Assembly: GCA_025057155.1 (NCBI GenBank)
Contig: JANWYD010000006.1
Span: forward strand, 124,001 to 188,000
DNA length: 64,000 nt
Reading direction: 5' to 3'
From: Chloroflexaceae bacterium
GTDB taxonomy: Bacteria; Chloroflexota; Chloroflexia; Chloroflexales; Chloroflexaceae
Every line of letters starts with the position of its first letter. Position 1 is the first letter of the stretch. Under the pieces are notes generated by a model that saw only the letters and a program-made list of their open reading frames with translations, was not told the origin of the DNA and ran no database searches. Shown here piece after piece: positions 12,196 through 20,972 of the stretch. A program made the translations under genes and the position numbers.

Positions 12196-12591
12196 TCATC
12201 TCAACCGCGGTCGGAACTTGTACCCGTAAACGAGCACCCCATCCTCGCCCGTATCGGCCAGGCGCCGCGTGACCATCTCGACCGGCATGCCGATGGCCAG
12301 GTCCTCTTCGGCGCAGTCGGTCAGTTGCGCCGTCACGAGAGGACCTTCCTCCAGACGGACCATCCCCACCGCGTAGACGCCGAAGCTCTCGTACCCGGCA
12401 GGGGGCTGCCGCAGCACGCTGAAGCTGTAAAGCTCGCCGCGGCCGCTCAGGGCCAGCGGCTCCCAGACGTCCGGATCCTCACCCAGCGCGGGAGGTTGGG
12501 GCGGAAAGCGCACCACCCCGCTGTGACGGTGGCGCTGACCCTCAAGCCGGTAACGGGTGGCGCGCTGGCGCCAGTGACGGGCGATTTCCAT
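12196..12591 (-). CDS. DUF35 OB-fold protein lacking the zinc-ribbon cysteines
   Basis: A 131-residue protein of the DUF35 (ChsH2-like) family. These proteins accompany thiolases and, in archaea, bridge acetoacetyl-CoA thiolase and HMG-CoA synthase in one complex. The OB-fold part shows GRGELYSFSVL, FGVYAVGMVRLEEGPLV and GMPVEMVTRRL. The N-terminal rubredoxin-like ribbon normally has four Cys around an FPPR segment. Here the segment reads VVRFPPQPP and the Cys positions are replaced, so zinc binding is not expected. Its place in the mevalonate cluster supports the assignment. The ATG at 12591 follows GAGGTG. Confidence 0.8.
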   Translation of the reverse strand: MEIARHWRQRATRYRLEGQRHRHSGVVRFPPQPPALGEDPDVWEPLALSGRGELYSFSVLRQPPAGYESFGVYAVGMVRLEEGPLVTAQLTDCAEEDLAIGMPVEMVTRRLADTGEDGVLVYGYKFRPRLR

Positions 12592-12621: not shown

Positions 12622-13236
12622 TCAGGGCGAAAAGCCGCCCGAGGCGCCGATGAACGCCGCGATAAGCGTAGCGAAGAAGAGTGCGACACATAGAACGATT
12701 GCCAGGCCAATCGCGAACAAGATGAGGACAACGTACAGGGCCTTGTTCGCTGGCAGGTTCATCCCCGACTGGATGGCCAGATAGGTCAGGTACAGGCCAT
12801 AGATCGACACGGCCAGGGAGAGGAACGCTCCAACTACCGGGATGTTACTCACCAGACTGCCGATCACGGTCAACGGCGCGCTGAACAGCGCGAAGCCGTA
12901 GGCCAGTTCGCCGAACTCGCCGGTGCCGCCGAAGGCTCGACCGAGTAGATAGACGATCCCCCAATAGATCAACAGAAAGATCACCGTACCCAACAATGTG
13001 GCGGGGAGCAAAAAGAAGATATCCGTTGCTTGGCTCGCTGCCACGCCCGGCTCAAGACCCGGTATCTCCGGTGGAAACAGCAGTGACCCGATCCAGCTAA
13101 TAACCGCATTGATCACGCCCGCTATCAGCGAGTAGATCAGCGCCCAGCCGAGGTTGTTCTGCTCGTGCTCCTCGAAGGTCGAAGCCGACGGACGGGTCAG
13201 GACCGCGATGCTGCCGTTGATCATTTGCTGGAACAT
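12622..13236 (-). CDS. Yip1-family membrane protein
   Basis: A 204-residue integral membrane protein with about five hydrophobic segments (near 30-52, 73-97, 108-130, 135-153 and 170-195). The layout and the FGELAYGFALFSAPLTVIG region fit the Yip1/DUF1282-type family, whose bacterial role is unknown. It lies between the thiolase-like and DUF35 genes, 30 bases before the latter, and may share its transcript. The ATG at 13236 has a strong AGGAGG ribosome site. Confidence 0.75.
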   Translation of the reverse strand: MFQQMINGSIAVLTRPSASTFEEHEQNNLGWALIYSLIAGVINAVISWIGSLLFPPEIPGLEPGVAASQATDIFFLLPATLLGTVIFLLIYWGIVYLLGRAFGGTGEFGELAYGFALFSAPLTVIGSLVSNIPVVGAFLSLAVSIYGLYLTYLAIQSGMNLPANKALYVVLILFAIGLAIVLCVALFFATLIAAFIGASGGFSP

Positions 13237-13382: not shown

Positions 13383-13476
13383 GTGGGGAAACCGGGTTTC
13401 CCCACGCCCCGGCCCGCGGGAAGGCTGCTGGCGTCCCCTTGCCGAGTACAAAGGTGTGGGGAAACCGGGTTTCCCC
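13383..13476. repeat. Two GGGGAAACC/GGTTTCCCC palindromes
   Basis: 13383-13405 is a perfect palindrome with 11-bp arms (GTGGGGAAACC) and 13458-13476 one with 9-bp arms. Both are in the gap between the thiolase-like gene and the Yip1 gene. A third good copy is at 51507-51529, and weaker relatives are near 14765, 39572 and 50411. Confidence 0.85.
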
Positions 13477-13524
13477 GCGCCGCGGCCTCCGAGGCAACCC
13501 GGCAGCGCCGCCTCGAAGGTGGCG

Positions 13525-14700
13525 CTACCGCTCCGCGACCAGGACACATGTCGCAGCGGTCGCGCCTACGCCGCCGAGACACTGGGCCAGGGCCACGCGC
13601 GCGCCGGCCACCTGGGTGGGACCGGCTTCGCCGCGCAACTGGCGCAGCAGCTCAACGACCTGGTACACCCCGCTCGCGCCGGCCACATCGCCGCGGGCCT
13701 TGTAGCCCCCGGCCGTGGCGATCGGCGTGCGGCCCGCGGGGGTGATGGACCCATCGGCGGCGTGGCACGGCGCGGCGCCCCGTTCATAGTAGCCCATGGC
13801 CTCCAGGGCCAGCGCCGCGGCGATGCCGTGGGGGTCGGTCAACTCGAAGACATCCACGTCGCTCAGGCCCAGATGGGCGCGCCCCAGAGCGATATGGACG
13901 CTGGCCCGCGCCGCGGCCAGGTCGAGCGGATCGGCGCGCAGGGCCAGCGCGGGCGTGTCGGTCGCCACGGCCACGCCCGCCAGCCGCACCAGCGGCACGC
14001 CCTCGGCGGCCGCTTCGCGGGCCACACGCTCGCCGGCGAGCACCACGCAGGCCGCGCCGTCGGCCACGCTGCTGCAATCGAGCATGTTCAACGGCGAGGC
14101 GACCATCGCGGCCTTACGGTACTTGTCGGCAGTGATGGGAAACCGGTAGAGCGCCAGAGGGTTCTTCGCGCCGTTAGCATGGGCATTGACCGGGAAGGGC
14201 GCGAAGGCCTCGGCCCCATAGCCGTATTCGTGCATGTAGCGGCGCATGAGCATGGCCCACTGGGCGGTGAGGGTCAACCCGTGGATGGCTTCGCTCTCGG
14301 CGTCGCTGGCCAGGGCCAGGGCGGCTTCAACCGCGTCATCGAGATGATCCGTGACCTTCTCTGCGCCCAGCACCGCCACGATCTCGGCCGTCCCGGAGGC
14401 GATGGCCTGCACCGCCTGATGAATGGCCACGCCACCGCTCGCGCCCGCCGCCTCCACCCGCATCGACGGCACGCCCCGCAGGCCCACTGCCGCGGCCAGA
14501 TAGGCTCCCAGGTGCCCCTGGGCCGCCAGGCGATCACCCAGCGCGTTGGCCACATAGAGCGCTCCCACGCGGTGCGCCACGAACTCCGGCAACCCCGCGA
14601 AGGCCGCCCGCGTCGCCTCGCTGGCCAGATCGGCCAGGCTCCGCCCGTAGTGCTCGGCTACCGGGGTAGCGCCCGCGCCAATCAGATACACTCCTGACAT
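13525..14700 (-). CDS. Thiolase-fold protein with altered active site (mevalonate cluster)
   Basis: A 391-residue homologue of archaeal/SCP2-type acetyl-CoA acetyltransferases, which make acetoacetyl-CoA. The fold-wide pattern is intact: RVEAAGASGGVAI, an NPLALYRFPIT loop, SSVADGAACVVL and a GASGVYQ C-terminal region. The catalytic positions are not. The nucleophilic Cys of the ACASGG motif is Gly86 (GGC codon). The HDxF motif reads TDPH (Thr288). The GHP histidine is Asp338 (RGDVAG). Only Cys374 of the C-terminal loop remains. Classical thiolysis or condensation therefore looks unlikely. A structural role with the HMG-CoA synthase and DUF35 protein, or different chemistry, is inferred. The ATG at 14700 follows AGAGG. 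Confidence 0.85.
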   Translation of the reverse strand: MSGVYLIGAGATPVAEHYGRSLADLASEATRAAFAGLPEFVAHRVGALYVANALGDRLAAQGHLGAYLAAAVGLRGVPSMRVEAAGASGGVAIHQAVQAIASGTAEIVAVLGAEKVTDHLDDAVEAALALASDAESEAIHGLTLTAQWAMLMRRYMHEYGYGAEAFAPFPVNAHANGAKNPLALYRFPITADKYRKAAMVASPLNMLDCSSVADGAACVVLAGERVAREAAAEGVPLVRLAGVAVATDTPALALRADPLDLAAARASVHIALGRAHLGLSDVDVFELTDPHGIAAALALEAMGYYERGAAPCHAADGSITPAGRTPIATAGGYKARGDVAGASGVYQVVELLRQLRGEAGPTQVAGARVALAQCLGGVGATAATCVLVAER

Positions 14701-14891
14701 AGATCAGCCTCTTTCCACAGGGAGAGCGCGGCCCTCCCGGAACACTGCTTGCCTGATCGAAGAAACCGGCTTTCCCCGCCCCTCTGCCGTGCGGGAGGAT
14801 TCGGGAGAGCGGCGCCCCAAAAACTTCCAGATGTTACTTCGGGGACGTGAGCCCCGACGCCGCTTGATCCGGGGCGCCTCGCTTTCCCCCT

Positions 14892-15941
14892 CTACCCCAG
14901 CACCAGCTTGCCGCGCCACCTGGCGTAGGTGGCATAGTCCACGAACACCTCCCGCTCCAGGTAGGCCGCCGTCAGCGGGGCGCGCTCGCGGCAGGCGGGC
15001 AAGCGCTCGGTCACGGTCAGGGCATAGGCGTCGGAACCGGCCCCGCTCCCGTAGGTGGTGACAAAGATCGTATCGCCGGGCCGGGCCACGTCGAGGATGG
15101 CGCACAGCCCCACCAGCGCCGCGCCCGAGTACGGGTTGCCGATGCGCGGGCTGAGCAGACCAGGGGCGATCTGAGCCTCGCTGAAGCCCAGGCGTTTCGC
15201 CACTGTCTGTGGAAACTTGGTGTTGGGCTGGTGAAAGACGGCGTAGGTAAAATCGGCGGGGGCGCGCCCCAACTCATCAAGCAGACGCCGCGCCGCCGAC
15301 ATGATCTGATGAAAGTAGGCCGGCTCTCCCGTGAAGCGGTTGCCGTGCACCGGGTAGGGCCGGTTGGCTCGGCGGTAGAAGTCCGGCGTATCGCTCACAT
15401 ATGAGACCGTCGCGTCAATCGTGGCCAGGGCCTCCTCAGCAGGACCAACCAGCAACGCTCCCGCCCCGGCGGAGGCCGTATACTCCAGGGCGTCGCCGGG
15501 GCGCCCCTGGGCCGTGTCGGCCCCGATTGCCAGCGCATAGTCGGCCATGCCGCTGCCCACCAGGGCCATGCTGGCGGTCAGGGCTTCGGAGCCGGCCTTG
15601 CAGGCGAACTCCCAGTCAGCCGCGCTGATCCAGTGCGTGGCGCCCAGGGCCTCGGCCACCACCGTTCCCGACGGCTTCACGCTGTAGGGGTGGCTCTCGC
15701 TGCCCACCCACACCGCGCTCAGACGCTCGGCGGGAAGGGCGGCGCGGGCCAGCGCGTTGCGCCCGGCTTCGATGGCCATGGTGATCACGTCCTCATCGGG
15801 GCCTGGCACACTCTTCGCCTCCACCGGCACCCCCGCCTGCCCGTCCGTCCACATGCGGGCAATTTCTCGCGCAGCAATGCGGTAACGGGGAACATAGGCC
15901 CCATAGCCGACCAGACCCACGGGCCGGATGGGTTTCATCAT
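14892..15941 (-). CDS. Hydroxymethylglutaryl-CoA synthase, archaeal type
   Basis: A 349-residue enzyme condensing acetyl-CoA with acetoacetyl-CoA, the first committed step of the mevalonate route. Archaeal-type marks are present: VEAKSVPGPDED (39-51), the acylated Cys114 in WEFACKAGSEA, the AVFHQPNTKFP histidine segment and GNPYSGAALVGL. All catalytic residues seem intact, unlike the thiolase homologue next to it. The reading MMKPIRP starts at 15941 behind AAGGAG. A 190-bp gap separates it from the thiolase-like gene and 211 bp from the reductase upstream. Confidence 0.93.
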   Translation of the reverse strand: MMKPIRPVGLVGYGAYVPRYRIAAREIARMWTDGQAGVPVEAKSVPGPDEDVITMAIEAGRNALARAALPAERLSAVWVGSESHPYSVKPSGTVVAEALGATHWISAADWEFACKAGSEALTASMALVGSGMADYALAIGADTAQGRPGDALEYTASAGAGALLVGPAEEALATIDATVSYVSDTPDFYRRANRPYPVHGNRFTGEPAYFHQIMSAARRLLDELGRAPADFTYAVFHQPNTKFPQTVAKRLGFSEAQIAPGLLSPRIGNPYSGAALVGLCAILDVARPGDTIFVTTYGSGAGSDAYALTVTERLPACRERAPLTAAYLEREVFVDYATYARWRGKLVLG

Positions 15942-16152: not shown

Positions 16153-17454
16153 TCAATGTGAACTCGCCGCGCGCAGTTCCGCGACCAGCTCCTCGGCGCG
16201 GGCCGGCTTGATGTTGCGCTCTTCGACCATGCGCCGCGCAACCTCGTCCACCAGTGGGCCGTGGGCGCCCGCGGCCATAGCGATCTGGCGCGCGTGCAAG
16301 CCCATGTGGCCCTGCTGGATGCCCTCGCATGCCAGGGCGCGCATCGCGGCCAGGTTGCTGGCCAGACCGGCGCAGACGGCGATCTCGGCCAACTGGTTGG
16401 CGCTGGTCACCCCCAGTAGCTTGAGGGCCGCCTGCGCGGCAGGGTGCACCTTGGTCGCCCCGCCGACAATGCCGACGGCCATGGGCATCTCCAGGGTGCC
16501 GACCAGGTTGCCCTCGGCGTCCTTCTCCCAGACGCTCAGCGAGGTATAGCGCCCGCTGCGGGCGGCGTAGGCATGGGCGCCGGCTTCGATGGCGCGCCAG
16601 TCATTGCCGGTGGCGACGATCACCGGGTCGATGCCATTCAGAATGCCCTTGTTGTGGGTCGTGGCGCGGTACGGGTCCACAGCGGCGAAGGCGTAGGCCC
16701 AGAGGATGCCTTCGACCACCTCCTCGCCGCGCAGACCGTCGCGCTCAAGGGCGCGCGGCGGCACCACGCAGCGGGCGCGCGCCAGGCGCCGATCGCTCAG
16801 GTTGGAGAGGATGCGCAGGTAGACCCGGCCGCCGGTGATCTGCTCCAGCAGCGGCGCCACAGCTTCACACATCGAGTTGATGGCATTGGCGCCCATCGCG
16901 TCGCGCGTATCAATAATCAGATGCACCACCAGCATCGGCCCCATGGGGCTGGCTGGATGGTAGTGCACCTCAACATCGCGCGCCCCCCCGCCAAGAGCGA
17001 CCAGCGAGCGGCTCTGCGCGTTAGCGACGGCCAGGATCTCGTCCTTGCGGCGCAGAATATCGTGGCGGGCGCTCTGCGGCGCGGCCACGTTCACGATCTG
17101 CACCTGGCCGATCATCAGCGGCTCGGTGCTGCTGGCGCTGAAACCGCCGCCCTCGCGCACCATCTTCGCCGCATAACTGGCCCCCGCCACAATTGAAGGC
17201 TCTTCCACCACCATTGGAATGAGATAATCTCGCCCGTTGACCTGGAAGTTTGTTGCAATCCCCAGTGGCAGGTTGAAGGTGCCGACAACGTTTTCGATCA
17301 TCTTGTCAGCGCGCTCAATCGAGAGGGTCCCCTGCCCCCCGTGCAGCGCGCGCAGATCTTCGTCGCACAGCCCGTCGAAGGTCTTGACCATCTGGAGACG
17401 CTCGAACGGGTTGAGTTGGTAAAATCCCTGGAGACGTGAGTTCTTGACGCCCAT
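16153..17454 (-). CDS. Hydroxymethylglutaryl-CoA reductase, class II type
   Basis: A 433-residue enzyme reducing HMG-CoA to mevalonate for isoprenoid synthesis. Class II marks are [18 protein letters not shown] (CoA-binding), [12 protein letters not shown] (nucleotide-binding region), THNKGILNG with the catalytic Lys and [12 protein letters not shown] with the catalytic His. Length agrees with the family. A GTG at 17499 is in frame, but the ATG at 17454 begins [11 protein letters not shown], the usual start of this class, behind GAGGAG. Later mevalonate genes (mevalonate kinase and others) are not in this window. Confidence 0.93.
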
Positions 17455-17509
17455 ACGTTCGGTTATCTCCTCGGTTCGTGACTGCACGCACAATTCCACT
17501 ACGCCAACA

Positions 17510-19137: not shown

Positions 19138-19968
19138 ATGATCTATGCAACCCGACGTTTTGAGTTTTCGGCGTCGCACCGCTACTGGCGCGACGATTGG
19201 AGCCCCGAGGAGAACGAGCGGCTCTTCGGGAAGTGCACCAGTCCCTACGGGCACGGGCACAACTATACGCTCGATGTCACCATCACCGGCGCGCTCGACC
19301 CGCGCACGGGCATGGTGATGAACATGACTGAACTGAAGGCGATTGTAAACCAGGTGCTGGAGGAGTTTGACCACCGGCACCTGAATGAGGATACGCCCTA
19401 TTTCAAAACCCAGCTTCCGACCACCGAGAACCTCGTGCGGGTGCTCTGGCGGCTGATCGCCGCGCGGCTGCCCGCCGCGGCCCGTCTGGCGCGCCTGCGC
19501 CTGTACGAGACGGCCGACCTGTGGGCGGAGTACGATGGCGCCGACGAGACCACCTTCGCCCGCGCGTACACCTTCTCGGCGGCGCACCGGCTCCATGCGC
19601 CAGCGCTGTCCGATGAAGAGAACCGCGCCGTCTACGGGAAATGTAACAATCCCAACGGCCACGGCCACAATTACACCCTCGAGGTAAGCATCAGCGGGCC
19701 GGTTGACCCCGACACGGGCATGGTCATTGACCTGCCTGAGCTGGATCGCACCGTGCGCGAGGTGCTCGATCAGCTTGATTTTCGCCACCTTGATCGCGAG
19801 ATTGCGGCCTTTGCCGATCAACCGTCAACCGCCGAGAACATCATTGTCTATCTCTGGAACGAACTGGCGCCTCGTTTTGAGGGCCGCCTGAGCTACCTGA
19901 GGCTCTGGGAAACGCGTAAAAACGTCTTCGAGTATGCTGGCCCGGTCGAGGCTGGCGAGCGCCGGTGA
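19138..19968 (+). CDS. Tandem 6-pyruvoyl-tetrahydropterin synthase (two fused PTPS/QueD domains)
   Basis: A 276-residue protein with two complete PTPS-fold domains. Domain 1 (1-130) has zinc ligands His14, His39 and His41, catalytic Cys33 (GKCTSPYGHGHNY), the Asp78-His79 pair (FDHRHLN) and TTEN. Domain 2 (137-268) has His150, His175 and His177, Cys169 (GKCNNPNGHGHNY, the eukaryote-like PTPS form) and TAEN. In domain 2 the Asp-His pair reads Asp214-Phe215 (LDFRHLD), so one catalytic residue is lost. Single-domain enzymes act on dihydroneopterin triphosphate. Proximity to folE suggests a tetrahydrobiopterin-like rather than a queuosine route. The covalent pairing is unusual. Confidence 0.9.
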   Translation: MIYATRRFEFSASHRYWRDDWSPEENERLFGKCTSPYGHGHNYTLDVTITGALDPRTGMVMNMTELKAIVNQVLEEFDHRHLNEDTPYFKTQLPTTENLVRVLWRLIAARLPAAARLARLRLYETADLWAEYDGADETTFARAYTFSAAHRLHAPALSDEENRAVYGKCNNPNGHGHNYTLEVSISGPVDPDTGMVIDLPELDRTVREVLDQLDFRHLDREIAAFADQPSTAENIIVYLWNELAPRFEGRLSYLRLWETRKNVFEYAGPVEAGERR

Positions 19969-20106
19969 AAGGGAGGTGGAGCAACCAGGGTTCTCCCGGC
20001 GCCTCCAGGGCGCCAGGGGCGTAGAGAAGCAACCGCCTTTCCCTATGCTGCTCATCTCTGCTCAGGGCTGATACAGGAGAGGAAGCCGCACACCCCGGGT
20101 GTTCCG

Positions 20107-20137
20107 CCGGTTCTGGCACCGGAGTTGCCAGAACCGG
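20107..20137. repeat. Perfect hairpin between the double-PTPS gene and folE
   Basis: The 12-bp arms CCGGTTCTGGCA and complement flank a 7-base loop. No U-tract follows. The rest of the 296-bp gap shows no gene. Confidence 0.75.
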
Positions 20138-20264
20138 TTGATCCTGTCGAGCGGCCGCCTCGCCCCGGTCTCCTCCATCAGAGGCCGACGATGCATCAGC
20201 CCTGTCACTCTGCGTGTCCATCGTTTTGAAATCTAGCACATCGCTATATCATACGGATCCACAT

Positions 20265-20972
20265 ATGACAACCCAACTAGAACCTAACGGAAGCGCCCGT
20301 CATCCCAGGAACGGGCGCGACTCCGAGACATTTAACGCCCATGACTACGAAGCCCTGATCGTCCCGGGACGGGGCAAACTCGAAAGCGTCGCCTACGGCT
20401 CCAATCCGCAGATCGAGGCGGCTGTGCGCGAGATCCTGGCTGCTATCGGCGAACAACCTGACCGGGAAGGTCTGCTGAAGACCCCTTCGCGGGTGGCAAA
20501 GATGTACGCCGAACTGACCGCCGGCTATCACGTTGACCCCGAGGCGCTCATCAACAATGCCATCTTCAGCGTTGACTACGACGAGATGGTGCTGGTGAAG
20601 AACATTGATTTCTACAGCCTGTGCGAGCATCACATGCTGCCGTTTATGGGCCAGGTGCATGTAGCCTACATTCCCAACGGCAAAGTGGTGGGGCTGAGCA
20701 AGATCCCGCGCATCGTTGAGATGTTCGCCCGACGCTTGCAGGTGCAGGAGCGCATGACGGTGCAGATCGCCGAGTTCATTGATCGCCACCTGCAACCCCT
20801 TGGCGTAGCCGTGGTGGCCGAAGGGGTGCATATGTGCTCGGTGATGCGGGGGGTGAAGAAGGCCAATGCGAGCATGGTCACCTCGGCCATGCGCGGGGTC
20901 TTTCGCGATGACCCCAAGACGCGGGCCGAGTTTATGGCTCACGTGGGTCGTTCCCGCACCCAGGAGATGTAG
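20265..20972 (+). CDS. folE: GTP cyclohydrolase I
   Basis: A 235-residue enzyme converting GTP to 7,8-dihydroneopterin triphosphate, the substrate of the PTPS encoded upstream. It carries [20 protein letters not shown], the zinc-binding [38 protein letters not shown] (split across the active site) and [11 protein letters not shown] with the third zinc ligand. The first 45 residues are a polar, poorly conserved extension. The ATG at 20265 is chosen over an in-frame ATG at 20214. A TTGAAA at 20226 with a TATCAT-like box at 20247 may be a weak promoter, leaving a very short leader. Confidence 0.95.

Follow-up and report, generated by a model that had tools for sequence, protein, structure and literature searches.

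What can a thiolase homologue do beside HMG-CoA synthase (HMGCS) once it has lost the residues of thiolase catalysis? The question is raised by a gene in a 64,000-nucleotide stretch of Chloroflexaceae DNA (the window; contig JANWYD010000006.1, positions 124,001 to 188,000) that belongs to a 5.13-Mb Chloroflexales draft genome. The ping-pong Claisen condensation of thiolases requires an acylated cysteine, and the rationale of the archaeal thiolase/HMGCS complex is substrate channelling, with HMGCS pulling the unfavourable thiolase reaction. A preliminary description of the window proposed that the protein is a non-catalytic subunit or performs other chemistry, while a normal thiolase elsewhere supplies acetoacetyl-CoA.

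Fold and catalytic loops of the thiolase homologue

The open reading frame is complete, starts with ATG and encodes 391 amino acids on the minus strand (14700..13525). It matches the Pfam families Thiolase_C_1 (PF22691, 1.7e-34) and Thiolase_N (PF00108, 4e-14), as well as PRK06064 at 9e-101, yet under the cut-off of the latter model. With both N- and C-terminal domains and similarity over the full length, the protein is a member of the SCP2-type/archaeal thiolases. The closest solved structures in a phmmer search are a Pyrococcus furiosus thiolase (7yvy, 1.8e-80) and the thiolase of the Methanothermococcus thermolithotrophicus complex (6esq, 2.8e-51), and the same neighbours came back when an AlphaFold model (pLDDT 75, pTM 0.81), adequate for this purpose and too coarse for pocket geometry, was compared by fold. 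Both the reading frame and the thiolase fold are thus preserved, as initially described. On the basis of the Pfam matches, the sequence and fold matches in the PDB and the dN/dS values given below, we annotate 13525..14700 (minus strand) as a putative pseudo-thiolase of the archaeal/SCP2 type.

The P. furiosus enzyme PFC_04095 (7YVY), about 40% identical to the window protein, shows the Cys, HDAF and GHP motifs typical of thiolases; the window protein does not. Where 7yvy reads VEAACASGG, the window protein has VEAAG(86)ASGG, with Gly86 (codon 14443..14445, minus strand) at the position of the nucleophilic Cys. EVHDAFTV is replaced by ELT(288)DPHGI, with Thr288 (13837..13839) for the His and His291 (13828..13830) for the Phe of HDxF, and ARGHPVGATG by ARGD(338)VAGASG, with Asp338 (13687..13689) for the His of GHP; all these codons lie on the minus strand. 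The three substitutions had been read correctly in the preliminary description; the fourth loop is changed as well, to QC(374)LGG from QNIGG. None of the residues expected of an EC 2.3.1.9 enzyme (nucleophilic Cys, GHP His, and the His of HDxF or Asn of NEAF of the oxyanion hole) is found in the protein.

Genomic context and the DUF35 partner

The gene order on the minus strand is HMG-CoA reductase (HMGR), HMGCS, the thiolase homologue, a Yip1-domain membrane protein and a DUF35 protein. HMGR (16153..17499, minus strand) matches PF00368 at 3e-115 and exceeds the cut-off of TIGR00532, and HMGCS (14892..15941, minus strand) is of the archaeal type, over the cut-offs of both PRK04262 and TIGR00748. 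Its catalytic motifs, with Cys (ACKAG), His (HQPN) and Glu (SES), are kept in 67/67. The DUF35 (OB_ChsH2_C) subunit (12196..12591, minus strand) was recognized by PF01796 (4.3e-22). Synteny of HMGR, HMGCS, thiolase and DUF35 extends over four Chloroflexales families, often without the Yip1 gene, and is also seen across the phylum. The Yip1 gene (12622..13236, minus strand; PF04893, 5.1e-20) separates thiolase and DUF35 in many, not all, Chloroflexaceae and is missing there in many relatives, and its product is not thought to be part of the complex.

Two further observations concern the surroundings of the gene. The thiolase gene is flanked on both sides (13383-13487 and 14757-14788 of the window) by short repeats built on GGGGAAACCGGGTTTCCCC or on a diverged version of this core, and peptides resembling that of the repeat (GNRVSP, GETGFP, GKRGFP) occur in spurious open reading frames elsewhere in the genome. 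As read from the translations, 19138-20972 of the window holds a tandem double-domain open reading frame resembling 6-pyruvoyl-tetrahydropterin synthase, followed by one resembling GTP cyclohydrolase I.

The thiolase, DUF35 and HMGCS families that make up the M. thermolithotrophicus complex are encoded together in the window, and the thiolase homologue aligns with its counterpart in 6esq with a TM score of 0.85. The thiolase of the archaeal complex retains Cys85 (PMC6392133), whereas the window protein lacks the Cys and both His, and its DUF35 neighbour lacks the four zinc-binding Cys.

The DUF35 structures known in 2019 were all described as zinc-binding (PMC6996347). In the degenerate zinc-ribbon stretch of the window protein (12478..12531, minus strand), the four Cys are replaced by H21, S24, A35 and E38, so that the Cys4 ribbon expected of the DUF35 subunit is absent. 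The CxxC...CxxC pattern is gone in every Chloroflexales copy sampled and at one locus outside the order (L105), and is kept by the other Chloroflexota DUF35 proteins (the stretch was not recovered at L177). Since these retain the zinc Cys whether the adjacent thiolase is Cys-less or intact, loss of the thiolase Cys and loss of the zinc ligands are separate events. To judge from these replacements, the predicted complex has been altered furthest in Chloroflexales.

Conservation within the Chloroflexales

We aligned 66 distinct full-length Chloroflexales orthologues from four families and compared them with 12 intact HMGCS-adjacent homologues. Position 86 is Gly in 65 orthologues and Thr in one, against Cys in 12/12 intact homologues; position 338 is Asp in 63 and Asn in three; and position 288 is Thr in 38, Ser in 24, Cys in two and His in two. 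Conservation of the three substitutions, raised as a check in the preliminary description, is therefore borne out, His being found at 288 in just 2/66. A local mutation or an assembly error, to which intact orthologues in the same position would have pointed, is ruled out by the order-wide replacement (66/66 without the Cys): such orthologues do occur at the syntenic position in other Chloroflexota families, but the Cys is present in 0/66 Chloroflexales sequences.

A second thiolase-like group, found in the Chloroflexaceae genomes G024, G001, G037 and G028 (L102, L103, L104 and L115), has Thr for Cys (EAATATGAA), with HDAF intact, and GHP intact where the sequence is complete; it does not adjoin HMGCS.

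Only six positions fixed in Chloroflexales differ from those fixed in the intact homologues (A53, G86, W148, G242, H291 and D338), and three of these are in catalytic loops. Position 291 is His in 66/66 and Phe in 12/12 intact homologues, and Trp148 (14257..14259, minus strand) stands in 66/66 where the intact homologues have Asn (12/12). The active-site loops are more conserved in Chloroflexales than the rest of the protein (0.83 vs 0.68).

This pattern is what favours the main alternative to a structural role, namely new chemistry through the invariant His291: the pocket would have been rebuilt for Cys-independent acyl-CoA chemistry, aldolase-like or decarboxylating, with His291 acting together with Asp289 or Asp338. 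Relatives with such properties exist, as Ltp2 and Sal are aldolases that work independently of a Cys nucleophile and are bound to DUF35 domains (PMC12329534). However, the tolerance for Thr, Ser, Cys or His at 288 and for Asp or Asn at 338 within the order makes neither position look catalytic, which weakens the earlier suggestion of other chemistry, and the Tyr of YDxF is absent. Overall we regard a rebuilt pocket of this kind as unlikely.

Ltp2-ChsH2(DUF35) and Sal-Shy(DUF35) (6OK1, 9MYR), both steroid aldolases, resemble the window pair as DUF35-bound thiolase folds with a non-thiolase function (PMC12329534), but carry YDHF or YDCY motifs where the loop in the window group reads T/S-D-P-H. 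A DUF35-dependent aldolase of the Ltp2/Sal type was rejected as a candidate because the catalytic Tyr is missing and position 288 varies.

Evolutionary rate and selection

The thiolase gene is under purifying selection and is not decaying, with pairwise dN/dS of 0.03-0.14. Relative to HMGCS, the Cys-less copies have diverged faster: the thiolase/HMGCS distance ratio is 1.87 in Chloroflexales, 1.72 in family f19 and 1.67 in f51, against 0.96 for intact copies, while the HMGR/HMGCS ratio is not elevated in the same groups (1.06, 1.40 and 1.30 vs 1.39 in intact). The contrast holds at matched HMGCS distance, in the just two bins with several intact pairs: 1.98 (Chloroflexales) and 1.55 (f19) vs 0.71 in the bin 0.2-0.35, and 1.75 (Chloroflexales) and 1.68 (f51) vs 1.01 in the bin 0.35-0.6. 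These ratios are simple corrected pairwise distances rather than a formal test of relaxation. A raised rate is what loss of catalysis with retention of binding would give; it suggests a constraint weaker than new chemistry would lead one to expect. Faster evolution than in intact copies would also fit a functionless remnant that is kept by linkage alone, but this is hardly credible given a frame that is open in every full-length copy examined, the low dN/dS and retention across the order.

Distribution and origin across the Chloroflexota

Archaeal-type HMGCS was found in 91 of the 400 Chloroflexota genomes sampled. Outside the Chloroflexales, HMGCS-adjacent thiolases with intact Cys/HD/GHP motifs occupy 12 loci in families f35, f47, f60, f73, f74, f77 and f80. 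Cys-less copies, with Gly, Asp, Glu or Gln at the Cys position, number 27 in families f19, f25, f51, f64, f82, f89 and f92, and one more (Glu, L105), from genome G089 of the same taxonomic class as the Chloroflexales, brings the total to 28 loci. That these lineages, in the same operon, show such different residues at position 86 makes no common new chemistry visible and is a further point against it.

In the thiolase tree the intact copies group together (support 90), apart from most Cys-less copies, and on the HMGCS tree the thiolase state changes four times; a single Cys-less clade is not rejected by the AU test (p 0.43). The variety of residues that stand in for the Cys, and the unequal fates of the two His, show that the pocket diverged separately after, or at, the loss. 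Genome G222 holds, in addition to a triad with a Cys-less thiolase, a second, divergent HMGCS-thiolase-DUF35 triad (L194), whose thiolase-like protein keeps a Cys (NACAG).

Other thiolases and the need for the mevalonate route

Four classical thiolases are encoded in the host genome, their CGSG/CASG, GHP and CxG motifs all intact, and a classical thiolase was found in 66 of the 67 genomes across the phylum with a Cys-less HMGCS-adjacent copy, the exception being the draft G071. The normal thiolase elsewhere that had been postulated in the preliminary description is therefore available. Of the 12 genomes whose adjacent copy is intact, 6 yielded no classical thiolase, and a relaxed search matched just the adjacent copy itself. 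The co-occurrence of Cys-less copy and classical thiolase gives a Fisher p of 2e-5, but the groups are related and amount to one phylogenetically independent pair, so that the contrast of 66/67 with 6/12 is descriptive and supports a division of labour without proving it. Irrespective of this, most of the Chloroflexota genomes sampled carry a classical thiolase (348/400). Synteny with HMGCS might still be taken to favour an active thiolase with an unusual mechanism; with no Cys in the nucleophile loop, both His replaced and classical thiolases present, we consider this very improbable.

HMGCS itself must work. DXR, a marker of the MEP pathway, was found in 0/82 Chloroflexales genomes, which makes the mevalonate route a necessity, and this absence agrees with the working lower mevalonate pathway demonstrated in Roseiflexus castenholzii (Dellas et al., 2013; PMC3857490). 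The thiolase homologue and archaeal-type HMGCS are missing together from three near-complete Chloroflexales genomes (G039, G049 and G055), in which we found no archaeal-type HMGCS over the cut-off, no bacterial-type HMGCS and no DXR; this joint absence speaks for a functional tie between the two proteins. Genomes without the thiolase have not in general replaced the archaeal HMGCS by a bacterial one, as a bacterial-type match was obtained in G054 only.

Discussion

We consider it probable that the protein is an inactive structural partner of HMGCS and DUF35 that completes a shared CoA site, with acetoacetyl-CoA provided by classical thiolases. The order-wide loss of the Cys, the purifying selection and the classical thiolases elsewhere in the genome all point to the non-catalytic subunit of the preliminary description. 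That the complex forms, binds CoA and has no thiolase activity is inferred, the assembly and the CoA site by analogy with known complexes: in 6ESQ, CoA is bound at an interface to which all three proteins contribute residues (PMC6392133).

The protein would descend from the thiolase subunit of an archaeal-type thiolase/DUF35/HMGCS complex, and would still bind DUF35 and HMGCS, contributing to the shared CoA pocket and lending HMGCS the structural support it needs. Stand-alone classical thiolases would make acetoacetyl-CoA, which would reach the complex from solution and be condensed with acetyl-CoA solely at the HMGCS Cys. Loss of catalysis may have been permitted where a classical thiolase was present, and the emptied pocket may later have been refilled lineage by lineage, in Chloroflexales with Gly86, Trp148, Thr/Ser288, His291 and Asp338. 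By analogy with 6ESQ and PhlABC, the pseudo-thiolase would be retained as the part around which HMGCS and DUF35 are assembled.

The Friedel-Crafts acylase PhlABC (5M3K) offers a precedent, as it has a three-part architecture in which one of the two subunits of the thiolase superfamily is inactive and kept for structure (PMC6392133). This is the HMGCS-like PhlA: its key Cys and Glu are missing, its role is taken to be structural, and assembly depends on it (PMC6392133). The roles differ: in PhlABC the HMGCS-like subunit is inactive and the thiolase-like one active, whereas in the window the thiolase is the predicted inactive subunit and the catalytic residues of HMGCS are intact.

Some observations stand against the structural reading. 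His291 and Trp148 do not vary among the 66 orthologues and could signal a new function rather than a filled pocket, and the draft G071 has a Cys-less copy with no classical thiolase detected. A speculative extension, which we hold to be rather unlikely, is that in Chloroflexales the old pocket now serves a purpose other than thiolase catalysis, as a new active or sensing site (His291, Asp338 and Trp148) that acts on acetoacetyl-CoA or gates it for HMGCS; having evolved along with the loss of the DUF35 zinc site, it would give the mevalonate pathway a rebuilt entry complex that has no catalytic thiolase.

The subunit might also have a regulatory or delivery function, holding acetoacetyl-CoA in the old pocket and handing it to HMGCS, so that channelling would persist without catalysis. 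The GGxKARG loop (K334, R336 and G337) is near-invariant in Cys-less and intact groups alike, and the SCP2-thiolase-like protein TbSLP of Trypanosoma brucei was crystallized with acetoacetyl-CoA and malonyl-CoA (titles of PDB entries). Yet Trp148 may fill the acyl pocket and hinder binding, and the proposal overlaps with the structural reading and so far has no evidence of its own; we judge it improbable. TbSLP (5AB4-5AB7) is itself a thiolase fold for which a non-thiolase function was suggested (PMC12329534). Unlike the window protein, it has a YDCF motif and no DUF35 partner. To our knowledge, no linkage of TbSLP to HMGCS has been described.

The thiolase superfamily already includes proteins that are inactive or have been repurposed (TbSLP, Ltp2, Sal and PhlA). 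A literature search of limited scope returned no report of a Cys-less or inactive thiolase in a mevalonate HMGCS complex, and within the literature searched the assembly predicted here would be a form of this complex not described before.

Returning to the structural reading, the Chloroflexota would offer natural versions of the complex in which the thiolase reaction has apparently been switched off, possibly more than once, with the subunit retained. With them one can ask whether the thiolase subunit is needed for catalysis and channelling or for the architecture of the shared CoA site. In Chloroflexales, acetyl-CoA acetyltransferase is probably a wrong annotation for this gene, and the source of acetoacetyl-CoA in these DXR-less bacteria would have to be sought among the classical thiolases.
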